NCBI RefSeq assembly: GCF_008806975.1 | Contig: NZ_CP031728.1 | Location: 3,803,501-3,867,500, forward strand | Length of the DNA: 64,000 nucleotides | Source: Cellvibrio sp. KY-GH-1 | GTDB taxonomy: Bacteria > Pseudomonadota > Gammaproteobacteria > Pseudomonadales > Cellvibrionaceae | Direction: 5' to 3' | Shown: positions 34,563-50,679 of the stretch, piece by piece | Layout: each line of letters starts with the position of its first letter | How positions within the stretch are numbered: the first letter of the stretch is position 1 | Made by a program: the position numbers and the translations under genes | The notes under the pieces: generated by a model | What the model was told of the DNA's origin: nothing | Databases searched by the model: none | Seen by the model: only the letters and a program-made list of their open reading frames with translations

Positions 34563-37500
34563 ATGGCAGACAATCGCAATTTTGCCGCGTTGGATTGGTT
34601 GATCCACGAGATCAGCGAAACGCTTAAAGAAGCGCGCCAATCGCTCGAAAGTTACGTGGAAAATCCCAAGGATGCCGCGCGTATCCGTTTTTGCCTGACA
34701 CACATTCATCAGGTGCACGGCAGTTTGCAGATGGTAGAGTTTTATGGCGCTGCCATGCTCGCCAGCGAAATGGAACAACTGACTCAGGCAATGATTGCGG
34801 GCAATGTCGCCAATGCGAGTGAGGCGCAGGAAGTATTAATGCGCGCGATCTTGCAATTCCCACTTTATCTCGACCAGGTCAAAGCGACTCGCAAAGACAA
34901 CCCGCTAATAGTACTGCCACTGTTGAACGATTTACGTGCGGTGCGCGGCGAAAGCTTGTTGACTGACACCAAACTCTTTGTACCCAACCTGACCCCGGCT
35001 AAAAAGGTCAATGGTACACGCCTTCCGGTCACTCAGGACAATGTGCAATTCCAGGCGATGGTGCTCAAGCTGCGCCAGATGTACCAATACGCCGCCTCGG
35101 GTTTTATTCGGGGGGTTAACCCGGAAGAAAATTTAGCTTACCTGCATAAGGCTTTCTCTCGCCTGCAAAAACTTACCCACGGCACCGCGCGATTTGCGCT
35201 CTGGGATATCTGCCTCGCACTGGTAGAAGCTGTTGAAATTGATGCAATAGAAATGAGCGTTGCGGTTAAAAACCTGCTGCGTCAATTGGATAAAGAAATC
35301 AAAGTGCTCGCTGTGCACGGGGTTAAAGCACTTAACAGCTTTACCAACGATGAACTGATTAAAAATCTGCTCTACTACGTTGCGCGCGCAGGCAAACACG
35401 CCCCTGGTTTTCCACCGAATTCCCAGCTGCAGCGCATCTACGAAACCTACAGCCTGGAAGAGGCGTTACTCGAAGGCAAGGAAACGGGTGATGACACCCA
35501 GGATATGCTTTCCGTGCCTGATGCTGACGCCATGCGCTCAGTGGTTGGTGCATTAAAAGAAGAGCTGAACCTGATCAAAAATAGCCTGGATGTGTGCCTC
35601 GCCGGCGGCGATACTCATGCCAGCCTGAGCGATGCCCTGCCCATTGTAAAACGTGTAGCCGATACCATGGCTGTGTTGGGGTTGGGAGATTTACGCAAGC
35701 GCATTCTGGAACAAGGCGCGGCGCTGGAGTTGGTAGTTGAGTCTCACAGCACCCTGAATGATGAGCAATTACTGTCGGTTGCCAGCCAGATTATTTCGGT
35801 CGAAAACTCGCTCGACAGCTTGATCGAACCCGGCGGGCAAGATGCGCACAACGTTGACGAAGCCGATATCACCCTGACTCGCGCCAAGGAATCCGTATTG
35901 CGTGAAGCACGCAACGGTCTCGAACATGCCAAAGACGCAATCATCGAATACATCGCGTCCCAATGGAATCGCCAGCACTTACAAAGCGTGCCTGCCACAC
36001 TGCGCGAGATTCGCGGTGGTTTGGAAATCATGCCACTGCCGCGCCCGGCCCGAATTCTCGGCGCCTGTGCCCGCTTTATTGAAGAGCAATTGCTGGAGCA
36101 GGAAGCCAATCCACAGTGGGCTACCCTGGATACGCTCGCCGATGCGATTACCAGTGTTGAATACTATTTAGAACGCCTGAGCAGTGGCGGCCGCAAAGAA
36201 GAAAATGACTTGCTGCTGAGCGTGGCCGAGGAGAGTGTTGCGAGCTTGGGCTATGCCGTTGCCAAAATCAGTAAACCGGATACCCCTGAAACAAGCAGCG
36301 AGTTAGCAGAAGAAGCGGTATTAACCGCCGCCTATGGTGCAAGTGCCTATGTAGAAACGGCACCTGCAGCAGAGCCCGGTGTGGATGAATCCAGCCAGCT
36401 GGAAGCAATCTACGCCCAAGCAGCTCCGGCAGACGCGCTTGCTTTGCAACCGGACTACACCGACGAAGAATCATTGATTGTTGAGGCGGAGGCCGATGCG
36501 CCAAGCGATGAATCTGCTGAAGAAACCCCTGCCTTAACCAGCGAGACCTTGCCAGTTGCAGTGCTGGAAGAAGTCGCAGATGACGCTGATGAAACAATGC
36601 TGGTTGCTGAAGCGGAAGAAGAGCCTGAATTAGAAGTAGCTGCCGCTATAGAATCCAATCTGGTTGCCACCAATAATGCCCCGGTAATTCAGCGCGAGAA
36701 CAACGAAGATATAGACGATGAAATCATCGAGATCTTCATTGAAGAGGCAGGCGAAGTTACTGAGACCATTGGCGAGTACTTCCCTCAATGGGCACAAAAT
36801 TTTGAGGACAACAACGCGCTCATCGAATTCCGCCGTGCCTTTCACACGCTAAAAGGCAGCGGACGCATGGTCGGCGCCAATGAGATCGGCGAGCTGGCTT
36901 GGTCCATTGAGAACATGCTCAACCGCGTGATTGACCACAGCATAGTGGCGCAAGCAGTACACGTGCACATCATTGAAAAAGTGCGCCTCCTTTTGCCAGA
37001 TATGATTGCTGCCTTCCGCGACAATATCGTTAATCCCCACGCCGAACTGGCGGAAACCTATCGCCAACAAGCGCATTCCCTGTCACAAGGTGTTATTCCT
37101 GATGCCCTGCTGAATGAGTTGGAACTGGCCCCCGCTGGCCAGGCAAGCGCCGCGCAACTGATTGAACAAGCAGAAGCGCCGGACGAAGAGCCCTATATCG
37201 CCGAAGATGCTGAAGCGCTTGGTCTGGAAGATGCAATTGTTGAAGACCAGCTTGAGCCGGAATTACCCGTACTCGAACTGGCCACTTCTGATGAAGAGCT
37301 CCATATTGAAGAGGTCGCGGCGGAATCCGCAGCCGATGAAAGGGTTATCGAGCTGATTGAGGAAGCGACTGGTAGTGATGAGGCCACACTGACTCAGGCC
37401 TACTCCGAGCATCAACTCAGCAACCCGACCTACAGCGAATCAGTCGATGAAGATATCGACATAGATGATCCCGATGCTCAACTCTGGGACATCTTCGGCG

Positions 37501-40500
37501 CCGAAGCTGTGTATCACCTCCATGTGGTGCAGCAGTTTATTCATCGGATGGAAGCGGAAGCGCCCATCTACGAACCGCCCAGTGAAGATATGCAGCGCGC
37601 CTTGCACACGCTCAAAGGCAGTGCCCATATGGCGGAAGTGACTCCCGTCGCGGAGTTGGCCACGCCGCTGGAGCGCTTTGTCAAAGAATTGCGCTCTTAC
37701 CAAGTCAATATCAATGACGATATCCTCCAATTACTGCGGGATGCAGTGAGTTACACCCAAGTTGCACTAAAGCAAATAGAAACCGGTGAAACCGTTGAAA
37801 TCCCACGATTGCAACAATTTATCGCCCGTGTACATGAGTTGCGTGATATTCATGTAGCGCCGCTGGTCAGCCTGCAGGAAATGGACGAACTGGGCAAACG
37901 TCCGGTCGATCCCGAATTGCTCGCCATTTTTATGGCCGAGGAAATGAACCTGCTGCTGGATGCAGACAAAATCATCTCGCAATGGCAAGACAACCCGGCT
38001 GATACTGCCCACTTGGTTCCAGTAATGGACGAATTGGACAAACTCACTCAAGCAGCCGCCCACGCCTATTTGCCTGCCATGGCAGAATTGGGCTCCAAGA
38101 TTCACAATGTCTATGAAGCTGTGATCGCGGGCCAATTGCGCTGCTCACCACGTATTTGCGATACCCTGAATCAAGCTCACACCGCCCTGCTGGATATGGT
38201 CGATGCCATTGCCGCAGGCCAAAACTTGAACGGTATTCCCGAGGCGGTTAACGACGCTTTGGATGACCTACTCAGCAATGAAGTCGTCACTATCACCAGC
38301 CTTGCCAGCGATCAGGTGCCTGTACTCGACGAAGACATTCCGCTGGTTGACCAACTGGCCGACGAAATTCAGCCAGAAATTGCTGCCAACAGCGACTTTG
38401 ATGTAGATGCCCTGCCCATCCTTGCGCTGGATGATGCTTATGCGCCGGACGCGGAAGAGCTGGAGCTTGCTACCGAAGATGAAGAGCTGGAACTGACATC
38501 CTTTGTCGCAGACGCAACAATTCCAGACGATGAAACTCTCGAATTGATCGAAGAAGTTGAGCTGGCAAGCAACATCCAGGATGAATCAATCGAGTTGGCA
38601 GATATCGAGCTGCTTGAAGAACCCGCTACTGAATACTCACTCACCAACGTTGCGCAAGAGCCCTTAACACTCGGTGATCCCATCGATCTCGGCGACACAC
38701 TGGAGTTAATCGAAGAACCAGCGTTAATGGACGACGTGGTCGAGCTGCATGAAGTCATCGAGCTGGAAACTCCGTCAACGTTTAGCTTTGAAACATCGTC
38801 AGATGCGCAAACTCTGGATCCGGGCGAGGCATTTGAACCGGTCGAGGCCATTCCAGTTGAAGCGCTGGCATTGAATGAGCCTGTACAACTGAGCGAAGTA
38901 GCAGTTTCGGACTCTTTCGTAAACCTTGCCATTGAAGCGCCGTCTGATTTTGAAACTCTGGATCTCGGAGAGGCCATTGATCTGGCGGAGTCTCTCGCGC
39001 CTGACGAAGCGTTAGATTTAGAAGAACCGGTACAGTTGGGCGACGTTGTCGAATTGATCGACGAAGATGCCTATGAACTCAATGATCAAATCCCGGAATT
39101 AACGATCGAAGCCGAAGCCGAAGCCGAAGCCGAAGCCGAAGCCGAAGCCGAAGCCGAAGCCGAAGCCGAAGCCGAAGCCGAAGCCGAAGCCGAAGCCGAA
39201 GCCGAAGCCGAAGCCGAAGCCGAAGCCGAAGCCGAAGCCGAAGCCGAAGCCGAACAAGATGATGTTGTGCTGCTCGACGACGAGCAAGAAGAAGTCGATG
39301 AGGACTTCGATCCGGAAATTGTTGAGATTTTCCTCGAGGAAGCCGGCGAGTTACTGGAAGAAATCGACGGTGCACTCAACGAGTGGCAGGACGACTGGAA
39401 CAATACCGATTGCGTGGAACAACTCAAGCGCTCACTGCACACCTTCAAGGGCGGCGCGCGTCTGGCCGGCTTGATGGATTTGGGCGACCTGTCACACGAC
39501 TTTGAAACCATCCTGATCGACATGGATGCGGACGCCGAGTTGGATCAATCCTTCTTTAGCCGCCTGCACAGCTACCAGGATCGTCTGCATTCCGGCGTTG
39601 AACGCTCACGTGCCCGTCTGAGCGGCAACTTTATCCCTGACGTAGCACCGATCAAAACATCGGTTGTATCAGAACCTCCAGTGTTGGATAACTACGTCAG
39701 CGTAGATGAAGTCGTTGCCGATATTGAATATGTCGCCACCGAGGTTACCAACAATAGCCTCATCGATGAAGAACCGAATGACCTTGCGGCACCGGCGCCA
39801 AGCTTTAATAAACCACGCGTAGTGGTGGATAACACCCGCGAAGCGGCGGTGCCTTTCTCGACCGATGGCGCACCGGTAGAAAAACCCAATGTGCTGACCT
39901 TTGCGCCCAAGGCCAAACCAGCGCCAACCAATACACCTGCCATTCCGGGCAGTGAGTTTGGCAGTGTGCGTGGAGGCCAGGGTGGCCCCGTACCTCAGGT
40001 ACAACACTTGGCGGCGCGTCGCACCGGCCCACAAGAAGTGGTGAAGGTGTCCGCCGAATTGCTCGAAGAGCTGGTAAACCTCGCCGGAGAAACCTCCATT
40101 AGCCGCGGCCGTATGGAGCAACAAGTCAGCGATCTGGGCGGTGCCATCGAAGAAATGGATTCCACCATCCAGCGCTTGCAGGAACAGCTGCGCCGTCTGG
40201 ATATTGAAACCGAAGCACAGGTTCTGTTCCGTCAGGAGCAAATGGCGCAACACGAAGAATTCGACCCGCTGGAGATGGACCGCTACTCGCAATTGCAGCA
40301 GCTGTCACGCTCGCTCATCGAATCTGCGTCCGACTTGATGGACTTGAAATACACCCTCGCGGACAAGACCCGCGACACCGAAACCCTGCTTCTACAACAG
40401 TCGCGCATCAACACCGATTTGCAGGAAGGCCTGATGCGTTCGCGCATGGTGCCCTTCTCCCGACTGGTGCCGCGCTTGCGCCGTATCGTGCGCCAGGCCG

Positions 40501-41855
40501 CGACCGAACTGGGCAAAGAGGTAGATTTCGAACTGGATAACGTGGAAGGTGAACTGGACCGTACCGTTTTGGAACGCATGGTCGCGCCGCTCGAGCACAT
40601 GTTGCGGAATGCGGTGGACCACGGCATCGAAATGCCGGACGAGCGTATTGCTGCTGGTAAAAACCCCAATGGCCGTATCCTGTTAACTCTGGGTCGCGAA
40701 GGCGGCGATGTGATCCTCCGTCTGGTTGACGATGGCCGTGGTATCAACCTGAAACGCGTGCGCGAAAAAGCCATTGAACGCGGTTTGATGGCCGCCGATG
40801 CGCAGTTGGCTGATCAGGATGTGATCCAGTTTATTTTGCACGCTGGCTTCAGCACGGCCGAGAAAGTCACCCAGATTTCTGGCCGCGGTGTGGGCATGGA
40901 CGTGGTGCACTCCGAGATCAAACAACTCGGTGGCGCCATGTTTATCGACTCCAACTGGGGCACCGGTACCGAATTCACCATCCGCCTGCCGTTTACCGTA
41001 TCGGTGAACCGCGCGTTGATGGTACAGATCGGCGACGATCTCTATGCGATTCCGCTCAATACCATTGAAGGTATTGTGCGCGTCAGCCCCTTCGAGCTGG
41101 AACACTATTATCAAGATGAAAGCGCTCGCTTCGACTACGCCGGCGAGCAATATCTGGTGCGCTACCTGGGTAACCTCCTGGATTCTGCCGCCCAACCCAA
41201 ACTGGACGGCCAATTGCTACCATTGCCAGTTGTGCTGGTGCGCAGTACCGAGCACACAGTGGCATTACAGGTAGATCGCCTGCTGGGCTCACGTGAAATT
41301 GTAGTGAAGACGCTCGGCGCTCAGTTCAGTGCTGTGCGCGGAGTTTCCGGCGCCACCGTAATGGGTGACGGTAACGTGGTGGTGATTCTGGATCTGCATG
41401 CCATGATCCGCGAACAGCTAGCCCTGGGCCAGCACGCTATCCAATTGGAGCCACTCAAGGCATTGCCGGTTGCCGAGGAAGACCAGAGCGAAAAAACCAT
41501 TATGGTGGTGGACGACTCGGTAACCGTACGCAAGGTAACCGGCCGCTTCCTGGAGCGCGAAGGTTTCCGTGTGATCACCGCCAAAGACGGGGTAGAGGCA
41601 CTGCAATTACTGCAAGACCATATCCCGGATGTGATGCTGCTGGATATTGAAATGCCGCGCATGGATGGCTTCGAAGTTGCCAAAAACGTACGCACCAGTT
41701 CGCGCCTGAAAGATTTGCCGATCATTATGATCACCTCGCGTACCGGTGAAAAACACCGCGAGCGCGCCTTCAGTCTGGGCGTGAACAAGTACATGGGTAA
41801 ACCCTATCAGGAGGACCTGCTGCTCACCAATATCCACGAGCTGCTGAAAAAATAA
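34563..41855 (+). CDS. chpA: ChpA, multi-HPt hybrid histidine kinase of the pilus chemosensory system
   Basis: 2430 residues. A degenerate HPt-like module has HQVHGSLQM around H52. Canonical phosphoacceptor histidines lie in FHTLKGSGR (H761), LHTLKGSAH (H1015) and LHTFKGGAR (H1626). Acid-rich linkers occupy roughly 560-700 and 1250-1590, and a Glu-Ala tract covers 1516-1563. The dimerisation helices precede the kinase N-box LEHMLRNAVDHGIE near 2010 and G-box ISGRGVGMDVV near 2105. A CheW-like domain follows (about 2145-2280), then a receiver with phospho-aspartate D2361 in MLLDIEMPRMDG. It is the central kinase for PilG and PilH. It has fewer recognisable HPt sites than I recall for Pseudomonas ChpA. 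Confidence 0.97.
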   Translation: MADNRNFAALDWLIHEISETLKEARQSLESYVENPKDAARIRFCLTHIHQVHGSLQMVEFYGAAMLASEMEQLTQAMIAGNVANASEAQEVLMRAILQFPLYLDQVKATRKDNPLIVLPLLNDLRAVRGESLLTDTKLFVPNLTPAKKVNGTRLPVTQDNVQFQAMVLKLRQMYQYAASGFIRGVNPEENLAYLHKAFSRLQKLTHGTARFALWDICLALVEAVEIDAIEMSVAVKNLLRQLDKEIKVLAVHGVKALNSFTNDELIKNLLYYVARAGKHAPGFPPNSQLQRIYETYSLEEALLEGKETGDDTQDMLSVPDADAMRSVVGALKEELNLIKNSLDVCLAGGDTHASLSDALPIVKRVADTMAVLGLGDLRKRILEQGAALELVVESHSTLNDEQLLSVASQIISVENSLDSLIEPGGQDAHNVDEADITLTRAKESVLREARNGLEHAKDAIIEYIASQWNRQHLQSVPATLREIRGGLEIMPLPRPARILGACARFIEEQLLEQEANPQWATLDTLADAITSVEYYLERLSSGGRKEENDLLLSVAEESVASLGYAVAKISKPDTPETSSELAEEAVLTAAYGASAYVETAPAAEPGVDESSQLEAIYAQAAPADALALQPDYTDEESLIVEAEADAPSDESAEETPALTSETLPVAVLEEVADDADETMLVAEAEEEPELEVAAAIESNLVATNNAPVIQRENNEDIDDEIIEIFIEEAGEVTETIGEYFPQWAQNFEDNNALIEFRRAFHTLKGSGRMVGANEIGELAWSIENMLNRVIDHSIVAQAVHVHIIEKVRLLLPDMIAAFRDNIVNPHAELAETYRQQAHSLSQGVIPDALLNELELAPAGQASAAQLIEQAEAPDEEPYIAEDAEALGLEDAIVEDQLEPELPVLELATSDEELHIEEVAAESAADERVIELIEEATGSDEATLTQAYSEHQLSNPTYSESVDEDIDIDDPDAQLWDIFGAEAVYHLHVVQQFIHRMEAEAPIYEPPSEDMQRALHTLKGSAHMAEVTPVAELATPLERFVKELRSYQVNINDDILQLLRDAVSYTQVALKQIETGETVEIPRLQQFIARVHELRDIHVAPLVSLQEMDELGKRPVDPELLAIFMAEEMNLLLDADKIISQWQDNPADTAHLVPVMDELDKLTQAAAHAYLPAMAELGSKIHNVYEAVIAGQLRCSPRICDTLNQAHTALLDMVDAIAAGQNLNGIPEAVNDALDDLLSNEVVTITSLASDQVPVLDEDIPLVDQLADEIQPEIAANSDFDVDALPILALDDAYAPDAEELELATEDEELELTSFVADATIPDDETLELIEEVELASNIQDESIELADIELLEEPATEYSLTNVAQEPLTLGDPIDLGDTLELIEEPALMDDVVELHEVIELETPSTFSFETSSDAQTLDPGEAFEPVEAIPVEALALNEPVQLSEVAVSDSFVNLAIEAPSDFETLDLGEAIDLAESLAPDEALDLEEPVQLGDVVELIDEDAYELNDQIPELTIEAEAEAEAEAEAEAEAEAEAEAEAEAEAEAEAEAEAEAEAEAEAEAEAEQDDVVLLDDEQEEVDEDFDPEIVEIFLEEAGELLEEIDGALNEWQDDWNNTDCVEQLKRSLHTFKGGARLAGLMDLGDLSHDFETILIDMDADAELDQSFFSRLHSYQDRLHSGVERSRARLSGNFIPDVAPIKTSVVSEPPVLDNYVSVDEVVADIEYVATEVTNNSLIDEEPNDLAAPAPSFNKPRVVVDNTREAAVPFSTDGAPVEKPNVLTFAPKAKPAPTNTPAIPGSEFGSVRGGQGGPVPQVQHLAARRTGPQEVVKVSAELLEELVNLAGETSISRGRMEQQVSDLGGAIEEMDSTIQRLQEQLRRLDIETEAQVLFRQEQMAQHEEFDPLEMDRYSQLQQLSRSLIESASDLMDLKYTLADKTRDTETLLLQQSRINTDLQEGLMRSRMVPFSRLVPRLRRIVRQAATELGKEVDFELDNVEGELDRTVLERMVAPLEHMLRNAVDHGIEMPDERIAAGKNPNGRILLTLGREGGDVILRLVDDGRGINLKRVREKAIERGLMAADAQLADQDVIQFILHAGFSTAEKVTQISGRGVGMDVVHSEIKQLGGAMFIDSNWGTGTEFTIRLPFTVSVNRALMVQIGDDLYAIPLNTIEGIVRVSPFELEHYYQDESARFDYAGEQYLVRYLGNLLDSAAQPKLDGQLLPLPVVLVRSTEHTVALQVDRLLGSREIVVKTLGAQFSAVRGVSGATVMGDGNVVVILDLHAMIREQLALGQHAIQLEPLKALPVAEEDQSEKTIMVVDDSVTVRKVTGRFLEREGFRVITAKDGVEALQLLQDHIPDVMLLDIEMPRMDGFEVAKNVRTSSRLKDLPIIMITSRTGEKHRERAFSLGVNKYMGKPYQEDLLLTNIHELLKK
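39108..39251 (+). repeat. Hexanucleotide microsatellite (GAAGCC)24 inside chpA
   Basis: Twenty-four perfect, uninterrupted copies of GAAGCC encode 24 Glu-Ala pairs. There is not one synonymous change, although other glutamates nearby use both GAA and GAG. The unit is a multiple of three, so gain or loss of copies changes linker length without a frameshift. On the other strand it reads as artificial Leu-Arg, Ser-Ala and Gly-Phe repeats. Confidence 0.98.
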
Positions 41856-41864
41856 GGCGCAATC

Positions 41865-42833
41865 ATGCTTCGCCTGGGAATACTGGTCGATAGCGCAGCC
41901 AAGCAGCAGATATTGGCGCAGTTGATTGCCAAATCCGGCCATAAGCTGGCGCATCAACTGCTCTTGGGGCAGGCCAAGCAGTTGGTCGATGACACCGACC
42001 TGGATGCCTGGCTGGTGGATGTGGCGGAAGACTATGCCGATGAACAGCTGCTGCTGGAAACCCTGTTCAGCCGCAGTCGCATCCCGGTGATTTTGAGCGA
42101 TAGCAGTGAATTTACTGCCGGATCAGAAGCCCACAGCGCCTGGCTCAGACGCACCAGCCTGCGCCTACAGCGTCTGCGCAGTGACATTAACCTGCAGCAG
42201 GCCGAACCGGCGCAGGAGCTGTGGGTTTTGGCAGCCTCCACCGGCGGACCCGCAGCAGTAAAACGATTTTTAGCGGCGTTGCCCGGCGATCTGGGCATCG
42301 CCTTTTTGTACGTACAACATATTGACGCCAACCAGTCAGTTACCCTGAACCGCATGATGACCAACGCCGGCAATTACCCGGCGCTGGTTGCCAGCCAGGG
42401 ACTGGTGCTGGAGGCCAATAGCCTGACGCTGATTACGGCCAAAGACCCGGTCGAGCTGCTCGGCAACGGTACCTTGATGGTCAACTACGGCCAAGCCTGG
42501 AAAGGCGATTACGCTCCGTCCATCGACCAGGTTGCCGCCAACGCCGCGCAGGTTTATCGCGAGCGCAGCGGTTTGATTATCTTTACCGGAATGGGCGATG
42601 ATGGCGCCGCCAGTTGTCGCATAATGAAACAGGTTGGCGGGCAAGTCTGGGTACAACGACCGGACGATTGCACCAGCGATTCCATGCCTGTTTCAGCGAT
42701 GGCCACCGGTTGTGTCGGGTTATCAGGTACGCCGGAATATCTGGCCAAAGCCTTGGCTAAGCTGGTCGCCAAACATCGCCTGACACGCGGTGTGAGAGCG
42801 CCCATCCGGGTCATTAAAAATGCAGCGCCCTAA
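41865..42833 (+). CDS. chpB: ChpB, CheB-like chemoreceptor methylesterase
   Basis: 322 residues. The N-terminal 110 residues resemble a decayed receiver domain without a clear phospho-aspartate pocket. The CheB catalytic domain carries the serine in LAASTGGPAAVKRF, the histidine in YVQHIDANQS and the aspartate in FTGMGDDGAAS. It removes methyl groups from PilJ, opposing PilK. It starts 9 bases after chpA. Loss of the receiver pocket suggests it is not controlled by phosphorylation in the way CheB is. Confidence 0.93.
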   Translation: MLRLGILVDSAAKQQILAQLIAKSGHKLAHQLLLGQAKQLVDDTDLDAWLVDVAEDYADEQLLLETLFSRSRIPVILSDSSEFTAGSEAHSAWLRRTSLRLQRLRSDINLQQAEPAQELWVLAASTGGPAAVKRFLAALPGDLGIAFLYVQHIDANQSVTLNRMMTNAGNYPALVASQGLVLEANSLTLITAKDPVELLGNGTLMVNYGQAWKGDYAPSIDQVAANAAQVYRERSGLIIFTGMGDDGAASCRIMKQVGGQVWVQRPDDCTSDSMPVSAMATGCVGLSGTPEYLAKALAKLVAKHRLTRGVRAPIRVIKNAAP

Positions 42834-42874
42834 TCCGTCGCTACAATAATTGCAGTCACAGAACAGGAAACACC

Positions 42875-43357
42875 ATGAGAGCGCCCCAACGCATAGAAAA
42901 GAAAATCGAAGAAGTGGCGAGCCTGCTAATCCCGCTGCAAGGGCGCATGCTGCTAGCACCCAACGTAACTGTGGCCGAAATCGTTCCTGTGTCCCAGGTA
43001 ATTCCCGTGCAAGACGCCCCGGCCTGGTACCTGGGCAATTGCAGCTGGCGCGAGCAAACCATCCCATTGCTCTCCTTTGAAGTGATGAACGGCGAGGAAA
43101 AACCGGGTGTTGTATCCCGTTCCCGTTTTGCCGTGATCAACACCACGGGGCTGCATGACGCTCTGCCCTTTATCGCCATTCTCACCCAGGGCTTGCCGCG
43201 TTTGGCGCGCGTGACTGAAGAAGAAATCACCGAGCGTGAAGACGCCGATAAAAAGCCCTTCGAACTAATGCATGTCAGCTGGGCGGGTGAAGAAGCGGTG
43301 ATCCCCGACGTCGAAGCTATGGAGCGAACCTTCCTCGACTACCTGCACCTGGAATAA
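42875..43357 (+). CDS. chpC: ChpC, CheW-like adaptor
   Basis: 160 residues with a CheW fold: LLIPLQGRMLLAPNVTVAEI, then PAWYLGNCSWREQTIPLLSF, FAVINTTG and the final EEAVIPDVEAMERTFL. In Pseudomonas ChpC is an accessory adaptor linking extra receptors to ChpA. It is the last gene of the cluster, 41 bases after chpB, with a GGAAA ribosome site. Confidence 0.93.
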   Translation: MRAPQRIEKKIEEVASLLIPLQGRMLLAPNVTVAEIVPVSQVIPVQDAPAWYLGNCSWREQTIPLLSFEVMNGEEKPGVVSRSRFAVINTTGLHDALPFIAILTQGLPRLARVTEEEITEREDADKKPFELMHVSWAGEEAVIPDVEAMERTFLDYLHLE

Positions 43358-43387
43358 ACCATCGCTGCGCGAACTCCCCCCTCTGTT

Positions 43388-43726
43388 ATGAACGAACTTA
43401 TCATTGAGGACCTGCAACTTGGCGACGGAAAAACCGTCGTCAAAGGCGCCCTTATCACTACCCACTACACCGGCTGGCTCGAAGACGGCACCGAATTCGA
43501 TTCCTCCCACCGCAAAGGCAAACCCTTCCAATGCGTCATCGGCACCGGCCGTGTAATTAAAGGATGGGACCAAGGCCTGATGGGCATGCAAGTCGGCGGC
43601 AAACGCAAACTCCAAGTCCCCGCCCATTTAGCCTATGGCGAACGCCAGATCGGCGCGTTGATTAAACCCAATTCGAATTTGGTGTTTGAGATTGAGTTGT
43701 TGGAAGTGCTTACAAGGGATGATTAA
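43388..43726 (+). CDS. FKBP-type peptidyl-prolyl isomerase
   Basis: 112 residues, the size of a minimal single FKBP domain without a signal peptide, so it is cytoplasmic. The core reads VVKGALITTHYTGWLEDGTE, FDSSHRKGKPF, VIKGWDQGLMGMQVGGKRKL and PAHLAYGERQIGALIKPNSN, carrying the conserved active-site aromatics. It starts 30 bases after chpC and reads in the same direction, so it may be co-transcribed with the Chp genes. The partner protein is unknown. Confidence 0.95.
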   Translation: MNELIIEDLQLGDGKTVVKGALITTHYTGWLEDGTEFDSSHRKGKPFQCVIGTGRVIKGWDQGLMGMQVGGKRKLQVPAHLAYGERQIGALIKPNSNLVFEIELLEVLTRDD

Positions 43727-43728
43727 AC

Positions 43729-43774
43729 CGTAGGTTGGTGCGGGCCGCGTAGGCTGAGCTTGCGAACCCCAACA
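43729..43774 (+). repeat. REP-like intergenic repeat, copy 1
   Basis: It begins CGTAGGTTGG and ends CGAACCCCAACA, the same ends as the element at 47267-47297, but its centre is longer and different. It lies directly after the FKBP stop. Confidence 0.55.
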
Positions 43775-43811
43775 TTTCTGCCTCTCGCCACTTGCACAAA
43801 TTTTGCCCAAT

Positions 43812-43837
43812 GATATACATTATGAGATATGTATATC
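43812..43837 (+). promoter_or_regulatory. Palindromic operator of the toxin-antitoxin pair
   Basis: A perfect 9-bp inverted repeat, GATATACAT (43812-43820) and ATGTATATC (43829-43837), separated by 8 bases. It ends 15 bases before the antitoxin start. AbrB-type antitoxins are known to bind such palindromes over their own promoter, so this is probably the autoregulatory site. It also argues against the ATG at 43829, which lies inside it. Confidence 0.65.
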
Positions 43838-43852
43838 CAAGGTAATACCATC

Positions 43853-44080
43853 ATGCAAATCGCCAAATGGGGCAATAGCCTCGCCATTCGCATCCCTGCG
43901 AATGTCGCCAAATCGCTCGAACTTAAAGCCGGTGATGAAGTTGAAATTGTGGCATCCCCCACCGGCTTTGAAGTCATCAAAGACGATCGCAAAAGCAAAG
44001 CACTGGAAACCCTCAACCGCTTCAAAGGTCGTTTGCCCAAAAATTTTACATTTAATCGGGATGAATTGAATGAGAGATAG
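43853..44080 (+). CDS. AbrB/MazE-type antitoxin
   Basis: 75 residues from ATG 43853; the upstream ATG at 43829 falls inside the palindromic operator. The swapped-hairpin DNA-binding domain is at the N-terminus: IAKWGNSLAIRIPANVAKSL followed by LKAGDEVEIVASPTGFEV. The basic and then acidic tail would bind the toxin. It overlaps the toxin gene by 11 bases, the usual coupling in such pairs, and should repress its own promoter with the toxin as co-repressor. Confidence 0.9.
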   Translation: MQIAKWGNSLAIRIPANVAKSLELKAGDEVEIVASPTGFEVIKDDRKSKALETLNRFKGRLPKNFTFNRDELNER

Positions 44081-44471
44081 GATTTTTCTCGACACCAATA
44101 TTCTGGTGTACGTCCTCTTGGACGAAGGCCCCAAACAACAAACCGCACTCGAACTTCTCCAATCAGGTTGCGTTATCAGCACCCAAGTGCTGAATGAATT
44201 CAGTCAGGTCGCCCGCAAAAAAGCCAAGCTCGAATGGCAAGAAATATCCGACCTCAGCCACGCCATCCAAACACTTACCGAAGTCATTCCACTTACACAA
44301 GAAATCCACAACACAGCGCTGGAAATTGCAGCGCAATATGGTTATGGGTTTTATGATTCGTTGATTATTGCCGCTGCGCATGAAAGCCAATGTAATTTGC
44401 TGGCATCGGGGGATATGCAAAACTTGCAAACGATAAAACAACTGGCAATAACTAACCCTTTCCACACTTAA
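44070..44471 (+). CDS. PIN-domain ribonuclease toxin (VapC family)
   Basis: 133 residues. The PIN-domain acidic residues are in FLDTNILVYVLL, TQVLNEFSQVA, YGYGFYDSLIIAAA and LLASGDMQNL, so the metal-binding active site appears intact. VapC-type toxins cut tRNA or rRNA when their antitoxin is degraded. The gene overlaps the antitoxin by 11 bases and ends 18 bases before the SIR2-TPR gene, so toxin pair and SIR2 gene may share a transcript. Confidence 0.92.
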   Translation: MRDRIFLDTNILVYVLLDEGPKQQTALELLQSGCVISTQVLNEFSQVARKKAKLEWQEISDLSHAIQTLTEVIPLTQEIHNTALEIAAQYGYGFYDSLIIAAAHESQCNLLASGDMQNLQTIKQLAITNPFHT

Positions 44472-44489
44472 AGGATTTTAAAATTTACT

Positions 44490-46076
44490 ATGGCTAAATT
44501 TACCAAAGACCAAATAAAACTATTAGCAAGACAAATGCTGACCAAGAGAGATTCAGGAAGGCCGTTTAACCTACTGACTGGCGCTGGCTGTTCCAAATCT
44601 TCTGACATACCTCTCGCCGCAGAATTGGTTAAAGAAATCCAAGAAAAATTTGGCGCTGAAATTGAAGATAAACTTGATCAACATCAAAGGAATGACTACG
44701 GCGCGTGTATGAGTTGCTTGGGCACCAATGAGCGCCGAGAACTGTTATCAAAATATCTTGATAATCCTAAAATTAATTGGGCACATATTGCCATCGCAAG
44801 TTTAATTCACGCAGGTTTTGTAAGCCGAGTGATTACCTTTAACTTTGATTCTATTCTGGCAAGAGCATGTAGCCTATTAGGACTGTACCCAGCAACTTAT
44901 GATTTTGCCGCAGCAGCAACTGTAGACACAGACTATATTGCTCAACAAGCTATTATTCATTTACACGGTCAAGGTACAGGAAAAAGCCTTCTTAATTCGG
45001 ATGAAGAAACTAAAGCACACGCCGAAAATATCCGTCCTTTAATACGTGCCACCTTTCAAGATAGCCCCTTGCTAGTGATTGGCTACAGCGGTTCGTCTGA
45101 CGCTGTATTTCCAGTCATCGCAGAAGAATACAAACGAAAAGAAAGATTGTGGTGGGCAGGTTATGCAGATATTCCAGATACATCGATTGCTAATTTCATA
45201 AATTTAAATAGTAAAGTTTCATACTATCTGGGGGGATGTGATGCAGATGAATTCTTGATCGAATTAGCCAAAGAACTGAATTGCTTTCCACCAGCTCTAT
45301 TTAGTGATCCCTATGGGCATTTGCTAAAAGACCTTGAACCTGTCACAGAGTTTCCATTTGAAAAACTAGGTTCTGTAGACCTATTAACACATCTAAAAAA
45401 AGAGCTTGCAAAATCTCAACAGAGATATAATGTAAATCGAAAAATTCCCGAACTGATGATGAAAGGTGATTGGGATGCAGTAATTTCTCTAAGTGATCGC
45501 AAAAATCCTGATCATCAAGACGCCCTTGCTTGGGCTCATACGATGTATGCTGGTCAACTTGTAAAATCTGGAAAAGCAAACAAAGATGAAAGTTTGTTAA
45601 AGAAAAGTTTTGAACAATTTTAGCACGCCACTACGATAAAGCCTGACTTACACGAAGCATTCAATAATTGGGGAAATGCTTTGCTAGCTCTTGCAAGAAT
45701 AAAATTGGATGAAAATTTCTTCTTGCAAAGCTTTGATAAATACCAAAAGTCCATATCCATTAAACCAGATAAACATTCAGCCTTTAATAATTGGGGCAGT
45801 GCACTACTAGGCATCTTTCAACTAACAAAAAACCATGAATACTTAGATCAAGCAAAGACTGTTCTTGGCACAGCAGAAAAATTAGATCCCGATAAAGTTT
45901 ATAATCAAGCATGCTTATACTCAATTCTTGATGAAAATGATAACTGCAGAGAAAAATTATTGCATTGCAAACAATCTAATACTCTTCCTGACAAAAATTT
46001 TCTTATGCAGGATAGAGATCTAGACAACATTCGCAATGAACCATGGTTTAAAGAATTGCTCAATAGTATTGAATGA
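44490..46076 (+). pseudogene. SIR2-domain / TPR protein interrupted by an in-frame amber codon
   Basis: The first open part gives 377 residues. It has a SIR2-like NAD-binding core with LLTGAGCSKSS (residues 29-38), VITFNFDSIL (N118, D120) and IIHLHGQG (H159), then FQDSPLLVIGYSGSSDAVFP. Codon 378 is TAG at 45621-45623. The same frame then stays open for another 150 codons to 46076. It encodes TPR-like repeats (LHEAFNNWGNALLAL and HSAFNNWGSALLGI) and the terminal DLDNIRNEPWFKELL that often closes TPR proteins. By repeat alignment the amber replaces a glutamine (CAG to TAG). The gene is visibly AT-richer than its neighbours. SIR2 proteins of this kind often act as NADase effectors in phage defence. 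Without readthrough the product is a SIR2 domain lacking its TPR sensor. Confidence 0.8.
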
Positions 46077-46102
46077 CAGCGCTTCAAACAAATGAACTTA
46101 AA

Positions 46103-46356
46103 AATACTCCACACAAATACTGCGCCAGACTAATCGCCACAACCGGTGCAGTTTCTGTTCTTAATACTCTTGGCTCAAGCGTTAACGCATTGAAATTTAT
46201 TGCTTGGGCTTGGGCAATTTCGTTTTCACTTAGACCCCCTCCGGGGCCAATTAACAAGCTGACACTTTGTGGTGTTTGTTCAGTGGGAAGGAATTTACTG
46301 TTGCGGTGATGCAGGACAAAACGCAGGCTGGAATTCACTTTTAGATAATCAGTTAT
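46103..46356 (-). pseudogene. Decayed 3' fragment of rsmE
   Basis: The translation from LRFVLHHRNSKFLP to VAISLAQYLCGVF matches the C-terminal 75 residues of the intact RsmE at 48169-48894 at 63 of 75 positions. It has no N-terminal domain or plausible start. The SAM-site motif GPEGG has become GPGGG, and the stop at the normal place is lost. It lies in the same orientation as the intact gene. It marks an old duplication or an insertion that carried an rsmE end with it. Confidence 0.9.
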
Positions 46357-46453
46357 CTGCAATGATTACCAGAAGATTCTATTACCCTATTCCTTACTTG
46401 CGCTAATATCTCTTATCGTTTCGAATGTTTATTATATTACTTCAGGCATAATT

Positions 46454-47235
46454 ATGACTACTTACGCCCCCAACAAAAACTCCGTGCAAGGAAAGCGAGT
46501 CAACCTAGGTAATATCGATATCCACTACGAAGAATTCGGGGATGGTAAGCCGCTGATACTTTTGCATGGGTTTGGGGGTTGTACGCAGAATTGGTATCCG
46601 TTTGTTGATGCGTTGGCGCAACACTATCGGTTAATTCTGGTGGATTTACGCGGGCATGGTTATTCCACTAATCCCGATAATTTGTTTACGCACAAAGCTG
46701 CCGCGCAGGATGTTTTTCAATTGTTGCATCACTTGGAAATACATTCTTTTTCTGCAATGGGAATGAGCAGTGGTGGTATGACGCTGCTGCATATGGCGAC
46801 CAGCCAGCCCGAGCGGATTGAGGCGATGGTGTTAATCAGCGCAACAACGCATTTCCCCGCGCAAGCCCGCGCCATTATGCGCAACGCTTCCTTGGCGACT
46901 ATGCCGCGTGCGGTGCAAGAAATGTATCGCGCCTGTGCAACACGCGGCGATGAGCAGATTCAACAACTCATTGCCCAATTCAACGCCTGGCCGACAACAA
47001 CGAGGATATGAATTTTACCGAGCAGGATTTGGCGCGCATTCGCGCCCGTACGTTGATTGTCCATGGCGATAATGACCGTTTCTTCCCTGTTGATATTCCG
47101 CAGGCTATGTATCGCGCCATTCCCAATTCCGAATTGTGGCTAATCCCCGGCGGTGATCACGCTGTTATTTTTGAGCCTGCCATTGGGTTTGCTGAAAGAG
47201 CGCTTGGGTTTTTGAAGAGGAATCAAATTGCCTGA
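46454..47235 (+). pseudogene. Alpha/beta hydrolase with a one-base frameshift
   Basis: Frame 1 (46454-47011) gives IDIHYEEFGDGKPLILLHGF, the oxyanion-loop HGFGG and the nucleophile elbow AMGMSSGGMTLL. After QFNAW the frame breaks, near 46984-46990. The downstream frame continues with LADNNEDMNFTEQDL, HGDNDRFFPVDIP (catalytic aspartate) and IPGGDHAVIFEP (catalytic histidine) to 47235. All three triad residues are present but split between frames, so a single lost base explains the break. The intact enzyme would have about 260 residues. An internal ATG at 47008 exists but would give only the C-terminal third. A sequencing error is possible. Confidence 0.85.
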
Positions 47236-47266
47236 TTTAGCATTTATATAATCGGATGGATGGTCA

Positions 47267-47297
47267 TGTTGGGGTTCGTTCCTCACCCCAACCTACG
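47267..47297 (-). repeat. REP-like intergenic repeat, copy 2
   Basis: On the minus strand it reads CGTAGGTTGGGGTGAGG followed by AACGAACCCCAACA, a 31-base imperfect palindrome whose arms pair through TTGGGGT/ACCCCAA. It lies between the broken hydrolase and the DTW gene. Similar sequences are common between genes in gammaproteobacteria. Confidence 0.65.
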
Positions 47298-47298
47298 T

Positions 47299-47766
47299 TT
47301 AGGTGTGAGTTATTTTTGAATTGAAAATTGCGAATTCTGCCTCTAACCGCTGCGCAGCGTTCGTGTGATTTTTTGATTTGAGTATTTCTATTACACACTC
47401 AGCGGTACACAAACCTCCGTCCGGCTGATTGCGCCTTAGTTTATACCGGGAAATCGTCCGGGTTTTAAACTGGGCTTTAGGTAAGTTTTTTAAATAGGGG
47501 CTTTTGTTAAACATTTTGCGTGCCTCTTGCCAAGTGGCGTCTAACAAAATGATATTTTCAAAGGATTCTATCGGTTCAGCAGCGTCGTCGGCGGGATAAA
47601 GCAAGACCGTATTTTCACTATGGATTGCATCCAGCAAAGCCGGATCAGGTGAGTTTCTCGCCCAAATAATTCGCTCTACTATTTCCGGTGCAAGACTCGC
47701 TGCCAATGCGCCCGTATTGGATGCGCGCAGGAGTTCGCGCTCATGGGTGAGTAGAAATATCTTCAT
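47299..47766 (-). CDS. DTW-domain protein, probable tRNA-uridine aminocarboxypropyltransferase
   Basis: 155 residues from ATG 47766; the ATG at 47784 would add MLNTFP, but family members start close to MKIFLLTHERELLRASNTGAL. The signature reads ILLDATWQEARKMFNKSPYL (DATW variant of DTW), followed by RRNQPDGGLCTAECVIEIL. The family is known to transfer the aminocarboxypropyl group of SAM to tRNA uridine. The cysteine-rich zinc segment of longer members is absent, so this is the short form. It is downstream of the parvulin gene. Confidence 0.88.
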   Translation of the reverse strand: MKIFLLTHERELLRASNTGALAASLAPEIVERIIWARNSPDPALLDAIHSENTVLLYPADDAAEPIESFENIILLDATWQEARKMFNKSPYLKNLPKAQFKTRTISRYKLRRNQPDGGLCTAECVIEILKSKNHTNAAQRLEAEFAIFNSKITHT

Positions 47767-47805
47767 TGGAAATGTATTTAGCATTCACCCAAATAAAACG
47801 CACGT

Positions 47806-48096
47806 TTAGCTGCGGTAGATTGTTTCAATCAAATGAAAGCCAAATTGCGTTTTGATGGGGCCATGAACTACATTGGTAGGCAACTTAAAGACCACGTTAT
47901 CAAATGCTTTTACCATTTGGCCCAGGCTAAACTCTCCCAGATTGCCGCCTTTTTTAGCTGAGCTACAGCTCGAATATTTTTTTGCCATAGCACCAAAGTC
48001 GGCACCCTTAGCAATAAGCTGTTTGATCTTCTCCGCTTCCTCTTTCGTTTTTACCAAAATATGTCGCGCTGATGCCGATTGTCTTTTTGAATTCAT
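47806..48096 (-). CDS. Parvulin-type peptidyl-prolyl isomerase (PpiC-like)
   Basis: 96 residues, a single rotamase domain without a signal peptide. The parvulin pattern is clear: ARHILVKTKEEAEKIKQLI, FGAMAKKYSSCSSAKKGGNL, GEFSLGQMVKAFDNVVF and the closing TQFGFHLIETIYRS. It is close in length to E. coli PpiC. It reads in the same direction as rsmE and DTW but with a 72-base gap after rsmE. Confidence 0.95.
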   Translation of the reverse strand: MNSKRQSASARHILVKTKEEAEKIKQLIAKGADFGAMAKKYSSCSSAKKGGNLGEFSLGQMVKAFDNVVFKLPTNVVHGPIKTQFGFHLIETIYRS

Positions 48097-48168
48097 AGTC
48101 TGGACTCTTGTTTTCTAATTAAGGGCAGATTACGCGCCCAGGTTTCTGAATATCTCATTCATAACCTG

Positions 48169-48894
48169 CTAAAAATCCCCCCACAAATACTGCACCAGAC
48201 TAATCGCCGCGACCGGTGCAGTTTCTGTTCTTAATACTCGTGGGCCTAACGTGAGCGCGTTGAAGTTTTTCGCTTGCGCGTGGGCGATTTCACTTTCGCT
48301 TAATCCACCTTCGGGGCCGATTAATAAGCTGACGCTTTGCGGTGTTTGTTCAGCGGGGAGGGTTTTGCTGTCGCGGTGATGAAGAACAAAACGCAAGTCG
48401 GAATCCACCGTGTTTAACCAATCTGAAATCTGAACAGGTGCGGATAGTTCCGGTAGTAAATTGCGTTGGCATTGTTCGCAGGCGCTGATAATGATGTGTT
48501 GCCAGCGATCAATTAGTTTTTCCTGGCGCTCACCGCCTACTTTTACTTCGGTGCGCTCGGTGACTAACGGCGTAATTTTGGTGACGCCGAGTTCGGTGGC
48601 TTTTTGTAATACCCATTCGAAACGTTCACCGCGGGAGATACCGATGGCCAATTCCAGTTGCAGGGGCGATTCGCGATTGTCTGCTGTGTGCTCAGCGACG
48701 GTAACAGCGACATGCTTCTTGCTCACTTCCTGAATGGTCGCGGCAAATTCACCGCCCGTACCATTAAACAAAATTAATTCGCGCCCGGCCTGCATACGTA
48801 ACACTTTGCTTAAGTGATGTGATGCCGATTCTTCCAGTTGCATCAGTTCGCCGGTTACTAAAGTTTGCTCGGTAAAAATTCTTGGGATGCGCAT
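48169..48894 (-). CDS. rsmE: 16S rRNA (uracil-1498-N3)-methyltransferase RsmE
   Basis: 241 residues from ATG 48894, five bases after the stop of the upstream gene; the frame is open to 48972 but overlaps it. A PUA-like N-terminal domain (RIPRIFTEQTL, HHLSKVLRMQAGRELILFNG) precedes the SPOUT knot with ISRGERFEWVLQKATELGV, SLLIGPEGGLSESEI and LGPRVLRTETAPVAAI. It methylates U1498 of 16S rRNA. It is probably co-transcribed with the glycosyltransferase operon. A decayed partial copy lies at 46103-46356. Confidence 0.96.
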   Translation of the reverse strand: MRIPRIFTEQTLVTGELMQLEESASHHLSKVLRMQAGRELILFNGTGGEFAATIQEVSKKHVAVTVAEHTADNRESPLQLELAIGISRGERFEWVLQKATELGVTKITPLVTERTEVKVGGERQEKLIDRWQHIIISACEQCQRNLLPELSAPVQISDWLNTVDSDLRFVLHHRDSKTLPAEQTPQSVSLLIGPEGGLSESEIAHAQAKNFNALTLGPRVLRTETAPVAAISLVQYLWGDF

Positions 48895-48898
48895 GCTA

Positions 48899-49969
48899 TT
48901 AGTGTTCGCTGTGAAGTTGTGCGTCGGTATTGTTGTACGGCAGCGACGATGAAATAAATAAACGCGCCGCACCTGTGTGTTCGGTAAGGGCGTCGGCCGC
49001 TAATAGAATTGCGCCGGTCGTCCAGGTGGTTTTTTCGCGCGGCCAAATTACCTGGTCGCGAAAATTAAATCCGGTCCAGTAGCCGCCATCCACATCCATA
49101 AATTGGTGCAGCCAGCTAAATAAATTTACCGCTTTGGCGTGTTCGCCCGCCGCGAGCAGCGCAAGCGTCAGTTCACAGGATTCCGCCACTGTTACCCAGG
49201 GCTCATCGCTGACGCAGCGGCAACCCACGTTGGTTTCTACAAAGGTGTGCCATTTGGTTTCGATGCGCTGCTGTGCGGCTTTACCTTCCACTACGCCAGT
49301 GAGAATGGGATAAAACCAATCCATGGAAAAACGGGTTTTGGGTTCCCAGGTGCGATCAAAATATTCCGGGTGATTGCGCAAGGTATGGCCCAGTTGTTGG
49401 TGCGCACTGCGCCAGTGGCTTGCGCTCAAGCCTAATTGCTCCGCGCATAAAATCGCACATTCCAGGCTTTTATAGATCGAGCTGGATGCCGTTACCAAGG
49501 CATCTTTTTTTGCGCTGCCATCTTCAGCGACTGCCCAATAGATTTCACCGGTAGGTGATTGGTAGTGCAACACAAAATTGATGGCTTTTTTTACAGCGGG
49601 GAAAAAGCGATGCAAAAAACTTTCATCGTCTGTCACTAAAAAATAATGCCAAATGCCGGTAGCAATATAGGCAATAAAATTGGTTTCGCGATGGTTTTTA
49701 TCAACCGGTTGATCATCCAGATAGTTCGCCCACCAACTGCCATCGCTTAATTGTTCTTGTACCAACCATTCGTAGGCACGCTGGGCTGCCGCATATTCAC
49801 CGCCAATGGTTAAGCCCATTGCCGCTTCAATATGATCCCAAGGGTCCGCTTTGCCACCGGTAAACCAGGGTATACAGCCATTGGGTAATTGGGTTTGCAA
49901 AATATAGTTAACCGTTGGACGCAGTAGCGACTCGGGGAAAAAGCCTTTGGAGAACAATAGATTTTTCAT
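48899..49969 (-). CDS. Alpha/alpha-barrel protein (prenyltransferase-like or glycan-processing)
   Basis: 356 residues from ATG 49969, which shares one base with the methyltransferase stop (TAATG); the longer frame to 50176 overlaps that gene. Repeated helical motifs (QLPNGCIPWFTGGKADPWDH, YEWLVQEQLSDGSWWANYL, QFMDVDGGYWTGF) are those of alpha/alpha toroids, which include prenyltransferases and several glycoside hydrolases. The tryptophan-rich GSWW and GGYW turns recur along the chain. No signal peptide is seen. The co-encoded glycosyltransferase points to glycan or glycolipid work, but no substrate can be named. Confidence 0.7.
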   Translation of the reverse strand: MKNLLFSKGFFPESLLRPTVNYILQTQLPNGCIPWFTGGKADPWDHIEAAMGLTIGGEYAAAQRAYEWLVQEQLSDGSWWANYLDDQPVDKNHRETNFIAYIATGIWHYFLVTDDESFLHRFFPAVKKAINFVLHYQSPTGEIYWAVAEDGSAKKDALVTASSSIYKSLECAILCAEQLGLSASHWRSAHQQLGHTLRNHPEYFDRTWEPKTRFSMDWFYPILTGVVEGKAAQQRIETKWHTFVETNVGCRCVSDEPWVTVAESCELTLALLAAGEHAKAVNLFSWLHQFMDVDGGYWTGFNFRDQVIWPREKTTWTTGAILLAADALTEHTGAARLFISSSLPYNNTDAQLHSEH

Positions 49970-50679
49970 TATAAGTTTTCTTTCCTGAAATACATCACCA
50001 CACTTTTTCCCATTATTGGATTCAATAATTTTTCCAGAGTTTGCGTGAGCCACGGCTTTTCCATTAAATCCCATACCAATAGACGATGATAAAGTTTGAT
50101 CAATGGATTGGAGTCCCGGGTTTTCCACCAGAGGCATTTCATCCACCAAAATGGCGAATGAAGGGCGTGCGCCCAATGGCGCTTATAAAATGAAAATGGG
50201 TGCTGCTCTATTTCCCTGCGCAACTCTTTTCCATTAAAAATGCGGATATGCCCACCTTCCACCAGATGATATTCCTCGCTCAGCCACCAGCAAATTTTTT
50301 CCGGCCAGGCGCGCGGTACCGTAATCGCAAGCACACCACCGGGTTTTAAAATACGCGCTATCTCGGTCAACACGCCTTGATAGTCCGGGATATGTTCCAG
50401 CACTTCACTGCAAATAATTTTATCAAAACTGTTATCTGAAAACGGCAAGCGAGTTGCGTCGGCCTGCTGCAAATAAAGTTGTTTATTGGTCGATTCTTGC
50501 TGGAACGGCAAAAATCGTTCGCGACTGGTCAGTAAATCGCGGTGGCTTAAATCTACACCTATCGCGGTTACATCCGCGTGCAAATACACATTGATGACAT
50601 GGCGACCTTCGCCGCAGCCCAGATCCAACACTCGATCGCCCGCCGCAAGCGGAAAGTCGGTGAAATTAATCGTCAACAT
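49969..50679 (-). CDS. Class I SAM-dependent methyltransferase
   Basis: 236 residues from ATG 50679, overlapping the glycosyltransferase stop by 7 bases; the longer frame to 50751 lies inside that gene. The SAM motifs are VLDLGCGEGRHVIN, GVDLSHRDLL, QQADATRLPFSDNSFDKIIC and ILKPGGVLAITVP. The C-terminal third is tryptophan-rich and basic (HSPFWWMKCLWWKTRDSNPL), which may dock at the membrane. Its place between a glycosyltransferase and the barrel protein suggests methylation of a sugar or glycolipid; this is inference. Confidence 0.82.
   Translation of the reverse strand: MLTINFTDFPLAAGDRVLDLGCGEGRHVINVYLHADVTAIGVDLSHRDLLTSRERFLPFQQESTNKQLYLQQADATRLPFSDNSFDKIICSEVLEHIPDYQGVLTEIARILKPGGVLAITVPRAWPEKICWWLSEEYHLVEGGHIRIFNGKELRREIEQHPFSFYKRHWAHALHSPFWWMKCLWWKTRDSNPLIKLYHRLLVWDLMEKPWLTQTLEKLLNPIMGKSVVMYFRKENL

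Follow-up and report, generated by a model that had tools for sequence, protein, structure and literature searches.

Among the SIR2 effectors of antiphage defense, DSR2 offers a model of how such a protein may work: an N-terminal SIR2 NADase is held under a C-terminal sensor domain, as set out in the available excerpts of PMC10973363. According to the same excerpts, the SIR2 domain of DSR2 is by itself a monomer that does not efficiently cleave NAD+ in the presence of the phage activator, whereas the full protein does. Certain mutants of the DSR2 sensor domain nevertheless activate themselves, and in SIR2-APAZ/Ago, activation is cited there as following from SIR2 domain release (PMC10973363, excerpts). 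A figure legend in PMC12700824 lists tetratricopeptide repeats (TPR) as one kind of additional domain in SIR2_2 proteins, so the SIR2-TPR architecture is already in print. Our literature searches for SIR2-TPR proteins or the TPR end-of-group domain gave no match by name, in a coverage that excludes most subscription papers, and we found no family name for these proteins. Searches on defense-gene loss and on defense in Cellvibrio returned nothing on a split gene among titles and abstract openings.

Cellvibrio is a genus of environmental gammaproteobacteria. We analyzed a stretch of 64,000 nucleotides (here called the window) from Cellvibrio sp. KY-GH-1, the genome of which is estimated to be 100% complete and lies on a single contig of 5.76 Mb. 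A frame opening with the ATG at 44490 runs for 377 codons (to 45620), meets a TAG, and continues for 150 in-frame codons to a TGA at 46074-46076 (Table 1). The TAG is the sole internal stop within a 534-codon frame. The 150 codons beyond it were kept open in 0 of 20,000 base shuffles of the same 450 nt, so the open frame is far beyond chance; the other two frames of this stretch contain 8 and 23 stops. Rereading the sequence reproduced exactly the coordinates and codon counts of a preliminary description of this DNA, which had spoken of a SIR2 core of 377 codons. That number is right for the open frame, but the SIR2 domain itself takes up only about residues 1 to 300 (an estimate), with the remainder of the piece formed by a linker and the opening part of the first TPR, which the TAG interrupts. 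The gene had also been called AT-rich and placed 18 bases after a toxin-antitoxin pair. The G+C content is indeed 39% in the first piece and 34% in the second, against 51% in the window, and 18 nt separate the stop of the PIN gene from the SIR2 start codon.

Table 1. Features of the split SIR2-TPR gene and its chromosomal site (window positions)
Feature	Position	Strand	Evidence
FKBP-type peptidyl-prolyl isomerase gene, left border	43388..43726	+	73-97% identity matches in 17 other genus genomes
MazE/AbrB-like antitoxin (start 43829 or 43853, uncertain)	43853..44080	+	PF04014, 1.1e-12
PIN-domain (VapC-like) toxin	44070..44471	+	PF01850, 5.8e-16
N-terminal piece (SIR2_2, linker, and first half of first TPR; TAG end)	44490..45623	+	PF13289, 487 homologues
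In-frame TAG splitting the gene	45621..45623	+	Frame reading
C-terminal piece (TPRs and TPR end-of-group domain; 150 codons, TGA)	45624..46076	+	NF047558, PF06552, PF13414, 109/120 homologues
ORF, 3' fragment of second rsmE copy	46084..46362	-	46099-46338 82% identical to the window's rsmE
Alpha/beta-hydrolase gene, frameshifted into ORFs of 185 and 75 aa	46454..47235	+	Open in G017
rsmE (16S rRNA methyltransferase), right border, TAG end	48169..48972	-	Seen in relatives' stretches

In profile searches, the first piece matched SIR2_2 (PF13289; 34.3 bits, 3.1e-8) above the curated cut-off of 24.5 for this antiphage-effector domain. The second piece matched the TPR end-of-group domain NF047558 (4.3e-10) and PF06552 (over its cut-off), with PF13414 slightly under its cut-off, which bears out the TPR-like repeats previously noted after the stop. 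These C-terminal parts are homologous to those of SIR2-TPR proteins, but the SIR2 and TPR parts do not share one open frame, as the TAG lies in between. The motifs GAGCS, TFNFD, and HLHGQ, which we take to be catalytic, all lie in the first piece, as do residues G31, A32, G33, S35, N118, H157, and H159, invariant across 20 aligned sequences. A search of the same genome for further SIR2_2 genes gave no second match, no Rfam family reached its gathering score at 42000-50000, and promoter and terminator scans found fewer sites than in shuffles.

A protein search with the first piece as the query found 487 homologues at 1e-3 among 6,401 candidates. The 120 that were listed include the window's own first piece, and 109 of them are also matched by the second piece searched alone. 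The homologues thus do not all end at the stop without a TPR part, a case that the preliminary description had left to be checked. The nearest intact relative, P0002 (528 aa, the joined length of the two pieces), shares 79% identity with the first piece and 58% with the second. Since protein databases hide internal stops, we also read the genome DNA at 32 loci. At 26 of these, the gene reads as a single open frame that is 499 codons or longer (one, L057, contains a run of N, and two have differing C-terminal parts, L050 aligning with P0002 residues 12-348 and L061 with 12-401). The remaining loci comprise three that run off the contig, two that are broken (L062 and L074), and one distant SIR2 (L075). 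No stop was seen at the site equivalent to the TAG among the 32 loci. The alignment extends through that site in 99 of the 120 listed homologues, where the residues are E (43), K (17), A (13), Q (12), R (6), and others (7), with a gap in one. Among the nearest relatives, Q stands here in P0002, P0004, P0005, and P0018, and R in P0003 and P0006. An alignment of the gene's own repeats had been used to place the stop at a glutamine; given a homologue column of mostly E, K, A, or Q, this is a fair argument but not a compelling one.

Strong matches among the 144 genomes of the family came only from the window genome (G000) and from G008, both among the 21 genomes of the genus; eight further family genomes, including another member of the genus, G018, had matches no stronger than 1e-5, which came from TPR or distant SIR2 parts. 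When 369 genomes were drawn evenly from the class, two matched at 1e-40 (the window genome and G239), too few for a rate. The homologue P0001 has two member sequences on two contigs, possibly two records of one genome. Carriage on mobile elements was considered and rejected, as plasmid records gave no match at 1e-20 and phage records and viral contigs gave one distant match each (24% and 33% identity).

G008 is a draft Cellvibrio metagenome-assembled genome (MAG; 79% complete, 470 contigs) with its SIR2 copy, the broken locus L074, on a contig of 8,723 bases (C413). The gene order of FKBP, antitoxin, toxin, and SIR2 is that of the window, and the contig is colinear with window 43510-44538, from the FKBP gene to the start of SIR2, at 77%. 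The G008 copy lacks about 0.4 kb (window 44539-44947), after which a short SIR2 stretch corresponds to window 44948-45133. Codon 9 of its SIR2 frame is a stop, and searches with four intact relatives located no TPR part. Upstream, the PIN ORF is uninterrupted (136 aa). Given the shared site and order and the different breaks, the two copies look, from their sequences, like descendants of one toxin-antitoxin-SIR2 arrangement broken by different events. The early frameshift could be an error, as G008 is a draft MAG, but the 0.4-kb gap and the missing TPR part are less easily explained in this way. A further hint of broken copies comes from P0029 ("SIR2 family protein [Cellvibrio sp.]", 244 residues), which agrees at 239 of 244 positions with the N-terminal end of P0006, an intact protein of 610 residues; it ends either by mutation or at a contig end. 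In the other broken locus, L062 (position 6361; an Acinetobacter MAG), an in-frame TGA stands near residue 119, and the rest of the aligned SIR2-TPR frame is open.

The site itself lies between an FKBP gene and rsmE (these names, like those of the CheW-like, alpha/beta-hydrolase, and DTW-domain genes, are our assumed ones). We surveyed 18 stretches downstream of the FKBP gene in 17 genomes, two of them shorter than 3 kb. Either rsmE or the neighboring DTW-domain gene was present in 10 of the 18, and in G018 the FKBP and rsmE borders touch, giving an empty site. A CheW-like gene lies upstream of the FKBP gene in most of the fetched stretches. Farther upstream, window 34563-41855 carries a 2,430-codon gene with a long alternating Ala-Glu run, which we presume to be ChpA-like. 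Relatives of the antitoxin-toxin pair occupy the site without SIR2 in G011, G004, and G013. For defense genes, ten defense-like ORFs were hand-picked from five of the 13 listed stretches and the other eight were viewed by eye, which is not an unbiased census. The cargo consisted of a Lamassu-like LmuA/B/C set (L142), a C5 methyltransferase with an AAA ATPase (L144), a CBASS cyclase with a 2TM effector (L149), a TIR protein matching PDC-S35 (L145), and a weak PDC-M28C match (L143); the L143 and L149 stretches showed no rsmE. By its gene content, the FKBP-rsmE interval (window 43727-48168) is a variable site in Cellvibrio, holding other predicted defense genes in some relatives. The block at 46515-48058, which contains the hydrolase frameshift (near 46990), is 96.5% identical to G017, against 82% on the FKBP side (43301-43729), and this difference suggests a recent exchange on the rsmE side. 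The second rsmE fragment likewise suggests past recombination.

We therefore read the split gene as a SIR2-TPR gene of a predicted antiphage kind that was recently inactivated at a variable site, and give this reading a probability of about 0.84. The preliminary description had proposed either an inactivating mutation or regulated readthrough. Recent inactivation is now well supported, above all by the second Cellvibrio copy, broken in another way at the same site; readthrough is without support. As to age, the last 105 residues carry 10 or 11 changes found only in the window copy, compared with 8 to 11 in P0002, and comparisons with P0003 to P0006 gave no significant excess of such changes. 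Over SIR2 residues 1 to 300, changes unique to the window copy number 13, compared with 5 or 7 for P0002 (chi-square, 3.56 and 1.80), a tendency to faster change that is not significant. The TPR end shows no visible drift, so the stop would be young relative to the divergence from the nearest known relatives, and we infer that the loss is recent on that scale.

In intact relatives, the TPR part would sense an infection cue and let the SIR2 part destroy NAD+. In the window copy, translation would stop at residue 377 and leave a SIR2 fragment without a sensor or an assembly surface. By analogy with DSR2, such a fragment is more likely inert than toxic, although sensor loss might instead free the enzyme, as the self-activating mutants and SIR2-APAZ/Ago illustrate. 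The loss would fit gene turnover at a variable chromosomal site. Selection by self-toxicity of the intact gene is possible, and ordinary turnover explains the data as well.

A sequencing or assembly error, with the gene intact in the living strain, is an unlikely explanation. The TAG rests on one assembly, in which one wrong base would suffice, and 0.4 kb downstream the hydrolase gene carries a frameshift relative to its 96.5% identical relative, which could hint at local error as well as at decay. However, the genome is a single, complete contig by estimate, and tiled ORFs of 100 codons or more, 58 in all, total 89% of the window (some tiles are perhaps not genes). That the orthologous G008 copy is broken too makes a loss in the window less surprising.

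It is very unlikely that the 377-aa product works as a SIR2-only effector or that the gene now encodes two cooperating proteins, the TPR part being restarted at the TTG at 45681 (from which the ORF finder gives a 131-aa ORF). The first piece does retain all the invariant SIR2 motif residues, and P0104 (392 aa) and P0102 (406 aa) likewise end in the region of the first TPR, about 15 and 28 residues beyond the equivalent site as judged by eye. These two may themselves be broken, and several other homologues shorter than 440 aa have, again by eye, frameshift-like tails or possible contig-end cuts. The TAG falls in the middle of a TPR, and the SIR2 domain of DSR2 is inactive alone (PMC10973363, excerpts). 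Among the 120 listed homologues, 111 have at least 440 aa and 9 are shorter (the window's own piece included), and apart from that piece none has 377 aa. We rejected a natural end of the listed homologues at the stop. No count was taken from pairwise mapping of the 120 homologue ends, which is unreliable because the TPR repeats draw the query tail to the wrong repeat.

Amber readthrough, regulated or constitutive, which would yield small amounts of the complete SIR2-TPR sensor-effector along with the short form, is highly improbable, and so is its variant in which the stop acts as a switch, low-level readthrough limiting a dangerous SIR2-TPR sensor to a few copies per cell while most of the product is the short SIR2 protein. 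Beyond the stop the frame stays fully open, with no acceleration at its end, but recent loss predicts an open frame equally well. No tRNA with a CTA anticodon was present among 42 tRNA matches, a list that is incomplete (150 of 240 candidates were scored, and Ile-GAT and Ala-TGC are absent). A suppressor-like tRNA pattern, limited to standard T-loops, gave 11 matches, none with a CTA anticodon, against 20 for the reversed-pattern control; the sole match inside a tRNA gene was in tRNA-Arg (anticodon TCT). TAG also ends 6 of the 58 tiled ORFs, namely, the split gene and five others, rsmE among them. The RNA around the stop folds worse than the shuffle mean (z = +1.19), with 178 of 200 shuffles folding at least as well. 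Finally, the stop is not conserved, as 26 of the 32 loci are open through the region and the two broken loci are broken elsewhere. We rejected readthrough, which found no support in the incomplete tRNA list, the pattern search, stop usage, RNA folding, or relatives. Elsewhere in the genome, at about 2495050-2495193 of contig C1 (L040, 101-244), lie two adjoining tRNA-like genes with the odd anticodons AAA and AAG.

As a single case, a split SIR2-TPR gene is ordinary. Its interest lies in a predicted NAD+-depleting defense gene that is broken differently in two Cellvibrio genomes, at one site and beside a toxin gene that is still open. A comparison of many such sites could ask if SIR2 effectors are lost faster than their neighbors, a question relevant to the cost of abortive defense.

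Compared with known systems, the gene is closest to SIR2-TPR proteins such as P0002 and P0055 (Shewanella oneidensis MR-1; 571 aa), which have the same domain order and the SIR2 motifs and to which both window pieces align; these relatives are one open frame, whereas in the window copy a stop interrupts the first TPR. Its SIR2 part also matches the PADLOC candidate PDC-S65 (1.2e-17, residues 6-263), although only over positions 16-290 of the 592 in the profile; the intact P0002 likewise matches only 16-291. The nearest solved SIR2 structures are PDB 8in8 and others ("Sir2 superfamily protein"), at 0.004 with the window piece and 3.6e-11 with the family profile. We take 8in8 to be a SIR2-APAZ/short Argonaute system, from which the window gene differs in that its C-terminal part is TPR (Pfam) and no Argonaute is among the neighboring genes identified. 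It resembles DSR2 in layout, but no DSR2 profile was among the window matches, and Dsr1 appeared only at 0.006. Most likely, then, the split gene is a pseudogene of a known kind, and the variable site in which it lies also takes in defense genes.
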